The position numbers were made by a program, and so were the translations under genes. From positions 1-64,000 of the forward strand of contig JAFRQT010000010.1 in assembly GCA_017428485.1 (NCBI GenBank): DNA of 64,000 nucleotides, given 5' to 3'. The DNA comes from Bacilli bacterium. GTDB taxonomy: Bacteria; Bacillota_I; Bacilli_A; RF39; UBA660. The notes below the pieces were generated by a model. It was not told where the DNA came from and made no database searches. It saw only the letters and a program-made list of their open reading frames with translations. Shown here piece after piece: positions 49,484 through 52,001 of the stretch; position 1 is the first letter of the stretch, and every line of letters starts with the position of its first letter.

Positions 49484-49514
49484 CAAAAAAAGATAAGTAA
49501 CTAGTACTTATCTT
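49484..49514 (-). terminator. Terminator of the ABC exporter gene
   Basis: 10-bp stem AAGATAAGTA/TACTTATCTT (49490-49499 with 49505-49514), 5-nt loop, TTTTTTT tract; contains the stop codon at 49513. Confidence 0.85.
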
Positions 49515-51243
49515 ATGAATTTAAAGATTCTGTTTCATATAAATTCTTATATATACTATTATTTAATAATAAATCATTATGTTTTCCACTACCGACAACC
49601 TGTCCATCATCTATCACATATATAATATCTGCATCTATTATGGTTGACAATCTATGGGCAACAATAATAACAGTGTGATCTTTAACGAGTGAATCTATTG
49701 ATTTTTTAATGTACTCCTGAGAATTATTGTCAAGAGCAGAAGTTGCCTCATCGAATAATACAATTTTACTTTTCTTAGCTAATGTTCTTGCAATTGAAAG
49801 TCTTTGTTTCTGACCTCCTGATAAGTTTACTCCGCCTTCTCCTAAAACAGTATTATATTTTTTAGGCAATGCCATGATGTAATCATCCAAATATGCCATT
49901 TTGCAATATTCTCTAACATCCTTCAATTTAATATTCTTATTAATTAACTTAAAGTTTTCTAAAATAGTTCTATTAAAAATAAATGGTTCTTGTCTAATAA
50001 TAGACACTTGCTTTCTAAGTTCATCTTCATCTAAATCTTTAATATTTATTCCATCAATAGTAATACTTCCCTTTTTAGAATCAAATATTCTAGTAAGCAA
50101 ATTAAATATTGTAGATTTTCCTTGACCGGATTTTCCAACAATTGCAATCTTCTTATTAGGCTCAATTGTAAGATTAAAATTCTTTAATAGTGATTTTTCA
50201 TTTGGATAATTAAACTTAATTTTCTTAAATTCAATTTTTCCGATAACATTCTTAAACTTTTTATTACCAAATTCTTCATCTTGATATAATCTATTTTCAA
50301 GAATCTCATTTACCCTTGTTAGTGATACAACTAATTTTTGATACATTTCAGTCAAATCATTAATCTCATCAATTAAATACATAAATTTATATACATAATA
50401 TGTTATTGATATAAAATATGCAAGAGTAACATATGACTTGAACAATAAAATCACACAGGTTGCGAACACTGTTGCTTCAAGCAATGATCTAATTATTTTA
50501 ATAAGTGTTTTATATTTTGTATAGATATCTGTTTCTTCAACAGATTTATTAAATATCATTTTGATAATGTCTCTTACATTATCAATTAAATTATTCTTAA
50601 CACCAAGTGTTTTAATTTCTCTTATTCCTCTTATGGATTCATTAACTAAAGAAGCGAATTTATCTTGTTCCTTTCTACGCTCCTTGTGTAATTTAATAAC
50701 TTTTGGATTAAATCTCTTAATAACTAAATAAAGTAACACCATAAAGAATATTATTTCTATGCCAATAATATATGAATTAATAAATATATAAATTAGTATT
50801 ACAATAGCTCCAATTAAGGAAGAAATGGTTTGTATTATTCTTCCAAATATAAAACTTAATGAATCTGCATCTGAAGTAATTCTATTGATAATTTCACCAG
50901 ATGAAGTCTTTTCAAATGCATAAGCAGGTAAATTAATTGCTTTTTGATATGTATTAAAGCTTAATTTTCTAGATATTTTATTCTCTACTTTCTGTAACAT
51001 AGCATAGCTTTTCATATATAACCATGCATCAATAACAATATTTATAGATAAATATATTCCTAGATACGTTAATGCTTTCTTAATGTCCAACTTGGTAGCT
51101 GATTCAACCACCATACCATTTAAATAACCTCCCATTGTATTAGCAATTTCGGTTATAAGAATTATAATACCTGCGATTATAATTTTAATTCTATCTTCTT
51201 TAATAAATTTCCATAGAGGCTTAAATTCTTTTAAATTTTTCAT
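49513..51243 (-). CDS. ABC exporter (fused permease and ATPase)
   Basis: A 576-residue half-transporter of the MsbA/BmrA/LmrA type. Six helices in residues 1-310, then the nucleotide-binding domain with Walker A GKSGQGKST, Q-loop IRQEPFIFN, signature NLSGGQKQRLSIARTLA, Walker B IVLFDEATSALD and H-loop VAHRLSTI. It has no C39 peptidase domain, so it does not look like a bacteriocin processing transporter. Works as a homodimer if alone; no second half is adjacent. It lies downstream of a small ORF and terminator (51255-51378). Confidence 0.93.
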   Translation of the reverse strand: MKNLKEFKPLWKFIKEDRIKIIIAGIIILITEIANTMGGYLNGMVVESATKLDIKKALTYLGIYLSINIVIDAWLYMKSYAMLQKVENKISRKLSFNTYQKAINLPAYAFEKTSSGEIINRITSDADSLSFIFGRIIQTISSLIGAIVILIYIFINSYIIGIEIIFFMVLLYLVIKRFNPKVIKLHKERRKEQDKFASLVNESIRGIREIKTLGVKNNLIDNVRDIIKMIFNKSVEETDIYTKYKTLIKIIRSLLEATVFATCVILLFKSYVTLAYFISITYYVYKFMYLIDEINDLTEMYQKLVVSLTRVNEILENRLYQDEEFGNKKFKNVIGKIEFKKIKFNYPNEKSLLKNFNLTIEPNKKIAIVGKSGQGKSTIFNLLTRIFDSKKGSITIDGINIKDLDEDELRKQVSIIRQEPFIFNRTILENFKLINKNIKLKDVREYCKMAYLDDYIMALPKKYNTVLGEGGVNLSGGQKQRLSIARTLAKKSKIVLFDEATSALDNNSQEYIKKSIDSLVKDHTVIIVAHRLSTIIDADIIYVIDDGQVVGSGKHNDLLLNNSIYKNLYETESLNS

Positions 51244-51254
51244 AAATCGCCTCC

Positions 51255-51285
51255 AAATAAAAAGCCTACATAGTAGGCATTAAAA
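51255..51285 (-). terminator. Attenuator-type terminator before the ABC exporter
   Basis: Perfect 6-bp stem GCCTAC/GTAGGC (51264-51269 with 51273-51278) and 3-nt loop, then TTTTTATTT on the minus strand. It lies in the 5' leader, about 15 nt upstream of the exporter start. The mid-ORF segment 51332-51339 is an exact complement of 51270-51277 and can compete for the 5' arm. Confidence 0.78.
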
Positions 51286-51291
51286 AGTTAT

Positions 51292-51378
51292 TTAGAAAGT
51301 TGGGAAAAAGATAAGTTCCCTTCTTTCATTTCCTACTATAAAACACTCATTATAATTTTTTGAATTTAATAATATCAT
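51292..51378 (-). CDS. 28-residue leader peptide of the ABC exporter
   Basis: A short ORF of 28 codons (starts MILLNSKNYNECFIVG, ends in a Phe-rich IFFPTF) with an AAGGAG ribosome site 9 nt upstream, 27 nt from the predicted transcript start. It precedes the terminator at 51255-51285. The 3' end of the ORF (51301-51313) can pair with its own ribosome-site/start region (51373-51386) over 13 bp with one bulged base. Layout matches ribosome-mediated attenuators of multidrug exporters such as bmrB-bmrCD. Translation is inferred. Confidence 0.65.
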   Translation of the reverse strand: MILLNSKNYNECFIVGNERRELIFFPTF

Positions 51379-51411
51379 TTTTCCCACTCCTTTCTCTTTA
51401 AATTCACCATT

Positions 51412-51440
51412 AGTCTAGCATAAGTGAAAGCGTATGTCAA
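51412..51440 (-). promoter_or_regulatory. Promoter of the ABC exporter leader
   Basis: Minus-strand TTGACA (51435-51440), 17 nt, TAGACT (51412-51417). Start site near 51405, giving a leader of about 160 nt before the exporter. Confidence 0.82.
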
Positions 51441-51461
51441 CCATATATAGTTAACATCCAC

Positions 51462-51509: not shown

Positions 51510-52001
51510 ATGAAAAAAATAATTAAGTTTTTTACAATTGCTTTATCAATATTAATTGGAGTAATTGCATTGTTAGAGATTTATAGTAGAATTTATATTA
51601 AATTTAATAAATCAGACTTTGCATATCTTATGAACTATACTTCATTTCAAATAAATGAAAATATGTCTTTAGAATATAATATTAATGATAGATTAATATT
51701 AGAAAAAAAAGAAAATTACAATATTGGTGATACTATCTTATTCAAGTACTTTGATACATATAAAATTGTTGAAATTAATGATAGATATTCTCGTTATTAT
51801 GATGCTCTCGATGAATCAAATAATGATTATTTAGTTAGCAGTGATCAAATAGTTGGAAAAGTAGTTACTAATTTCAGTAAATCCTATGATTTATATAGTA
51901 CTTTAGCTACACCTAATATTGTAGTTCTATTTATTATTTTATTAATCTCATATATATATTTTGACAATAAAGATGTTAAATATTCAAAGGATGAGTATTA
52001 G
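51510..52001 (+). CDS. SipW-like signal peptidase homologue, probably inactive
   Basis: A 163-residue membrane protein: helix at 5-27, outside beta domain (about 30-130), C-terminal helix (about 133-152) and a charged tail. It can be laid on SipW/archaeal-type signal peptidase [30 protein letters not shown] stands for the SMEPTINVGDxVIV block, YKIVEIND for the HRIVEI block, and [13 protein letters not shown] for the conserved end. The catalytic Ser before Met is Asn and the His is Tyr, so it should be catalytically dead. Ribosome site GGAAGAAG. Its last 26 bp overlap the convergent glyA gene. Confidence 0.75.

Follow-up and report, generated by a model that had tools for sequence, protein, structure and literature searches.

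On the minus strand of the window (the whole 64,000-nt stretch of DNA analyzed here), the leader of a gene for a probable drug-exporting ABC half-transporter is very probably a transcription attenuator that senses the ribosome, judging from its sequence and from those of its relatives. It contains a small ORF whose own Shine-Dalgarno (SD) sequence and start, segment A, can pair with its last codons, segment A'. In the OFF state, this A:A' anti-antiterminator would hamper a second pairing, B:B', so that an intrinsic terminator would form and transcription would end before the exporter. In the ON state, a ribosome halted on the start codon or shortly beyond it would cover A or, alternatively, one stalled on the last codons would cover A'. 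B would then pair with B' once B' had been transcribed, no terminator would form, and RNA polymerase would read into the exporter gene. By comparing leaders, we show the anatomy, order, and spacing of these elements and the conservation of the ORF, the SD, A:A', B:B', and the terminator. We infer that the leader ORF is translated and that drugs stall ribosomes on it. The stalling signal would be a drug that targets the ribosome, most likely at initiation or during early elongation, and the exporter presumably removes such compounds.

Anatomy of the exporter leader

Along the RNA, the elements follow one another in the order D, A (SD and start), D', B (about codons 13-16), A' (ORF end), and B' with C (the terminator arms). 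Their positions in the window are as follows.

51435-51440 (-): -35 hexamer TTGACA; a TTGAC-type hexamer stands at the same place in most relatives
51412-51417 (-): -10 hexamer TAGACT with TG in front (extended -10), read from the sequence
51398-51406 (-): D, the predicted RNA 5' end, (T)GAATTTAA, which pairs with D'
51385-51394 (-): SD of the leader ORF, GAAAGGAGTG, near-invariant among relatives
51378-51386 (-): A, UGGGAAAAA, from SD to start, 5' arm of the anti-antiterminator, supported by folding and covariation
51292-51378 (-): leader ORF of 28 codons plus TAA, MILLNSKNYNECFIVGNERRELIFFPTF; an ORF is present in all collected leaders
51361-51369 (-): D', TTAAATTCA, codons 4-7 of the leader ORF, which pairs with D
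51332-51339 (-): B, ATAGTAGG, codons 14-16, 5' arm of the antiterminator, which pairs with B'
51301-51309 (-): A', TTTTTCCCA, ORF end, 3' arm of the anti-antiterminator, which pairs with A
51270-51277 (-): B', CCTACTAT, 5' arm and loop of the terminator and 3' arm of the antiterminator, complement of B
51259-51278 (-): intrinsic terminator GCCTACTATGTAGGC plus TTTTT, with a stem at 51278-51264 (-6.9 kcal/mol)
51250-51254 (-): SD of the exporter gene, GGAGG, just past the terminator T tract, read from the sequence
49513-51243 (-): ABC half-exporter gene, 576 aa, ABC_membrane and ABC_tran domains, ATG at 51243; the gene predicted to be controlled

A first-pass annotation of this DNA had proposed a consensus promoter, a 28-codon ORF with a good ribosome site, an intrinsic terminator before the exporter, and an exact 8-nt complementarity between ORF and terminator, and all four are present. 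The sigma-70-type promoter (51440-51412, minus strand) has a 17-nt spacer, and its spacing predicts a transcription start near 51405. B (51339-51332) is the exact reverse complement of B' (51277-51270). The annotation had also paired the end of the ORF with its start; this pairing forms the core of the minimum-energy fold of the window leader and covaries in relatives. Its own core joins 51386-51378 (UGGGAAAAA) to 51309-51301 (UUUUUCCCA), with extensions GAAAG/CUUUC and GAU/AUC, the helix being prolonged by CTTTC at 51299-51295 with GAAAG at 51394-51390. A third pairing, D:D', which the annotation did not contain, is also present. Lying at the RNA 5' end, it is probably the first hairpin, and our guess would be that it pauses RNA polymerase or delays A:A'.

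Both A:A' and B:B' were found together in 1 of 55 candidates with an SD and a small ORF across the 64-kb window (candidates were tallied per SD motif match), and that one is the leader ORF. Between 50500 and 52500 there is one terminator-like site, with 0.3 expected. The folding energy of the window leader alone is weakly unusual (z -1.5), and the strength of the case lies in comparison among relatives rather than in single-leader folding energy.

Two further features lie upstream. An imperfect operator-like palindrome, TGTTAACTATATATGGTTGACA, spans the -35 hexamer (51435-51456, minus strand), and versions of it stand before many exporter leaders, among them TGTCAACTAAAAATAGTTGACA in L003 (10 of 10 matching positions) and those of L011 and L129. 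Its recurrence suggests an additional repressor layer. A divergent gene for a 163-aa protein (51510-52001, plus strand) has likely membrane segments at both ends, as judged by eye; it resembles a signal peptidase by eye only, and a Pfam search up to E 1 gave no match.

Conservation and covariation among relatives

The first-pass annotation had let its reading depend on conservation in near relatives, and we find the leader conserved. Exporter homologs are present in 60 of 60 relatives searched, and the same layout preceded 11 of the first 14 orthologs examined. A search of 291 genomes yielded 40 leaders before orthologous ABC exporters in a single family of uncultured gut Bacilli. The exporters behind them are about 40-95% identical, the distant ones sharing about 42-45% protein identity. 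The ORF, SD, and A:A' recur across the roughly 40 exporter leaders, and B:B' with the terminator is conserved, with compensatory changes, in 28 of 36 dereplicated leaders. A typical leader has the 5' end GAATTTRAAGA and the SD AAAGGAGTG, and its ORF of about 21-41 codons is followed by a terminator ahead of the gene. No leader of the exporter set lacks the SD, the start codon, or the ORF. The layout is missing from many exporter relatives, and a recognized terminator is missing in some leaders (for example L005, L070, and L080).

Six leaders, with the window's own excluded, were used to build a covariance model, which retrieved the window leader at E 8.5e-5. In a class-wide sample, the same model found nothing convincing outside the family. 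Its single outside match (E 0.009) is no better than chance, and within the sample searched the exporter-type leader therefore seems restricted to the family. A looser family pattern search, allowing three mismatches, returned mostly chance matches. L146 proved to be a false leader in the exporter set, and we rejected one covariance-model match, L163 (G261:C6, near 31230), which sits among small peptide genes. Two adjoining small ORFs at that locus have GG-type leaders (MLNTKADGLSAGVIAAIAAG... and MLKITGGGS...) and look like bacteriocin precursors.

Some loci depart from the common plan. L035/L148 (G012:C2:43806) is well preserved (E 4.7e-13) with an altered terminator; no exporter gene was found behind it, and it is apparently an orphan left after exporter loss. 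In L005, L174, L177, and L196, A:A' is present, no terminator is recognized, and the gene starts 19-27 nt past the ORF; these may be a variant of the switch that acts on translation. Close to one exporter locus, L080:3239-3321 matches the skipping-rope RNA family (RF02924). No leader has an Rfam match at gathering score.

To measure covariation, we counted pairings on anchored leader pieces rather than on a whole-leader alignment; in a MAFFT alignment of entire leaders, A' and B are scattered owing to the varying leader lengths. Since the anchors were picked from the best helix, which biases them toward paired cells, the shuffled and slid controls matter. Across the 29 distinct leaders anchored in this way, standard pairs make up 93.1% of A:A' cells, compared to 75.7% after shuffling, and 8 of 10 pairs show changes on both sides. 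The covariation score is 0.595 versus 0.259 for shuffled leaders, and none of 500 shuffles reached any of these measures. Sliding the partner by 1-3 columns abolished the signal, every other register being worse. Against dinucleotide shuffles A:A' has a z of 18.1, and 0 of 20,000 leader permutations did as well.

B:B' behaves similarly. Its score is 20.3 with a leader's own terminator arm and 15.1 with the arms of other leaders (0 of 20,000 permutations), with a z of 15.6 against dinucleotide-shuffled ORFs. The two arms change together, reading ATAGTAGG/CCTACTAT in the window, AGTGGCTAT/ATAGTCACT in L009, GTGATAATGAC/GTCATTATCAT in L013, and TTTAGTGGTTTT/AAAACCACTAAA in L118. D:D' is weaker, at z 6.2 against dinucleotide shuffles and 436 of 20000 permutations (about 0.02). 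By these comparisons, the predicted antiterminator B:B', exclusive with the terminator, is kept by covariation. The conserved layout and compensatory changes also support the earlier proposal that mutually exclusive pairings mediate attenuation by the ribosome.

Ribosome position as the predicted signal

The A' anchor falls in frames 0, 2, and 1 of the ORF in 13, 13, and 9 leaders, respectively, and one A' RNA element is translated as FSH, FSL, or ILT in different leaders. With every frame used to read A', selection appears to act on the RNA pairing and not on the peptide. Across the exporter leaders, we found no conserved peptide motif, including arrest motifs such as RLR or IFVI, and inspection of the same set revealed no run of regulatory codons. 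Close relatives share the peptide ending NERRELIFFP[TS]F. The sequence comparison argues that the signal is ribosome position rather than recognition of a nascent peptide.

We simulated co-transcriptional folding on RNA ending at B', the moment of decision, with a ribosome footprint set by the P-site codon. Without a ribosome, the window RNA gave P(A:A') 0.81 and P(B:B') 0.13. A ribosome at codons 1-5 raised P(B:B') to 0.65-0.73, one at codons 8-20 left it at 0-0.15, and one on the last codons or stop gave 0.71-0.94. Averaged over 28 leaders, P(B:B') was 0.51 without a ribosome, 0.81 with one at codon 1, 0.01 with one at codon 14, and 0.71 with one three codons before the stop. The ribosome-free state is OFF in the window but ambiguous in many leaders. 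From these simulated effects of ribosome position, the expected inducers would be drugs that stall ribosomes on the start codon or close to it. When the complete terminator was folded at equilibrium, it was often still favored under a start-codon ribosome (0.96 in the window). As the terminator usually wins at full equilibrium, the switch would have to be kinetic; kinetic switching is usual for attenuators.

Other signals have to be weighed against a drug that stalls initiating ribosomes. The leader could be a general sensor of slowed translation, responding to starvation, ppGpp, or ribosome defects, with drugs as one trigger among several. Without a conserved peptide motif, any stall near the start would serve, and defects in ribosome assembly likewise induce vmlR of Bacillus subtilis, which also responds to (p)ppGpp (PMC9226507). 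The repeated link with resistance-type genes, described below, suggests instead that drugs are the selected signal, and we hold a general sensor to be possible, if rather unlikely. Stalling might also take place on the last codons (FFPTF-stop) rather than at initiation, through the nascent peptide or context-specific drug action. A ribosome near the stop would expose B and cover A', as in the simulations, and close relatives do have an ending in common; however, the three frames used to read A' make the C-terminal residues vary among leaders, and a common ending in near relatives can reflect common descent. This version is less probable again, and we consider it unlikely.

A classical attenuator sensing one amino acid through regulatory codons would have the same trp- or his-type layout of ORF, antiterminator, and terminator, but the leader peptides are unrelated and lack a common run of a regulatory codon, A' shifts among three frames, and the downstream genes encode exporters and drug-modifying enzyme types rather than biosynthesis; we give it very little credence. 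The same small weight falls to a ligand-binding riboswitch, or a protein-binding leader that happens to hold an ORF. Riboswitches too have mutually exclusive folds, but no leader matches an Rfam family, and the sequence that is kept is that of the ribosome binding site itself, with SD, start codon, and ORF in every leader of the exporter set. Finally, the modest single-sequence z-score of -1.5 would be expected of chance complementarity in A+T-rich DNA beside an ordinary upstream terminator. Covariation and permutation tests among leaders contradict this, as does the uniqueness of the pairing combination within the window, and we regard it as extremely improbable. We continue to favor a ribosome-sensing attenuator with drug stalling near the start codon as its signal.

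Related leaders and known attenuators

The same design also stands before other genes. The pattern GAAAGGAGTGTGATTAA occurs in 31 of the 291 family genomes and led us to further leaders of the same plan. One type, MKNLQVINNAELITTPNL, precedes a cytidine deaminase fused to an N-terminal domain, and a protein with an AAC(6')-like domain is encoded behind a leader of this first type. Stand-alone deaminases have short leaders of the same plan, in which we found no terminator. The deaminases score better against cytidine deaminase than against blasticidin-S deaminase, so their role against drugs is only suggested. Leaders of the "...NSGLIALxL" kind precede a P-loop kinase-like gene and APH-family genes, including an APH(2'')-like gene (E 3e-63), as well as operons with an ABC-F protein (E 2.7e-90). 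In a scan of 84,980 genomes, the second leader type of this wider family appeared only in uncultured gut MAG records, mostly titled Bacilli or Bacillales. Sister leaders L168, L170, L184, L198, L202, and L217 lie before resistance-type operons of uncultured gut Bacilli, which hold deaminase fusions and GNAT/AAC(6')-like, ABC-F, and kinase-like genes.

That unrelated genes have this leader in common suggests reuse of an inducible module. In its widest form, this would mean that modular attenuators with self-closing upstream ORFs (uORFs) have spread within one gut Bacilli family and drive a regulon of unrelated resistance-type genes, a proposal that we judge about evenly balanced. If true, the regulon would comprise an ABC exporter, a cytidine-type deaminase, APH, AAC(6'), and ABC-F. 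Under this modular proposal, the last ORF codons would act as an anti-SD that closes the ORF's own start, so that initiating ribosomes, or ones stalled early, would be sensed whatever the peptide sequence. Because the RNA pairing is conserved and the peptide is not, the sensor should follow ribosome position rather than one drug-specific arrest motif. The leader would then allow drug-inducible genes of resistance type to be recognized from sequence in a large gut lineage that is mostly uncultured, and it would predict which uncharacterized genes in these genomes answer translation inhibitors.

A literature search limited to open-licence papers found no published description of the leader. Naville and Gautheret predicted attenuators before ABC transporter operons of bacilli and lactobacilli (PMC2965389); these ABC-leaders are computational clusters from cultured Firmicutes, and the leader described here is not known to be among them. 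By analogy, our leader fits the general kind of ribosome-mediated attenuators represented by vmlR and bmrB. The first-pass annotation had likened it to bmrB-bmrCD, which holds for the general kind; the nearer mechanistic match is vmlR (PMC9226507). In that leader, an anti-antiterminator lies at the uORF start, and stalling at initiation induces. The vmlR uORF has three codons in a bulge of stem-loop SL-1, its SD lies in a single strand before it, and peptide variants are all functional (PMC9226507). Both leaders combine a short uORF with an SD, an anti-antiterminator involving the uORF start, an antiterminator, and an intrinsic terminator. Instead of a tripeptide, however, the leader described here has an ORF of 28 codons (about 15-40 across leaders), its SD pairs with the ORF's own 3' end, the middle of the ORF is the antiterminator arm, and the controlled gene is an ABC exporter rather than an ABC-F protein.

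bmrB-bmrCD is induced by lincomycin, erythromycin, and chloramphenicol, and its ORF is longer, with all three hairpins confined to the 3' part (nt 60-162) and the start outside the switch (PMC4191407). It shares with our leader a leader ORF (translated in bmrB), the terminator, antiterminator, and anti-antiterminator, and control of an ABC exporter, which in bmrCD is multidrug. Here, A is at the SD and the terminator is past the stop, so the hairpins are not all within the 3' part of the ORF, and a half-exporter gene takes the place of the two-gene heterodimer. In hflXr/rli80 of Listeria, which is ribosome-dependent, a small ORF likewise spans the anti-antiterminator, but its 14-aa peptide has an RLR arrest motif (PMC6310831), whereas none is conserved here. 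The toiL uORF of Escherichia coli is also encompassed by a hairpin, which start-codon stalling by tetracycline or retapamulin opens, and several drug classes are sensed; it acts on topAI translation and Rho termination (PMC12121999) rather than on an intrinsic terminator. tlrB (PMC6851288) is also among the closest known systems. The arrangement keeps the leader out of the bmrB and vmlR families in any strict sense: its ORF pairs back onto its own SD, and the antiterminator arm is formed by the middle of that ORF. A leader ORF that closes on itself, reused before unrelated genes, appears to be a new form of this general kind.
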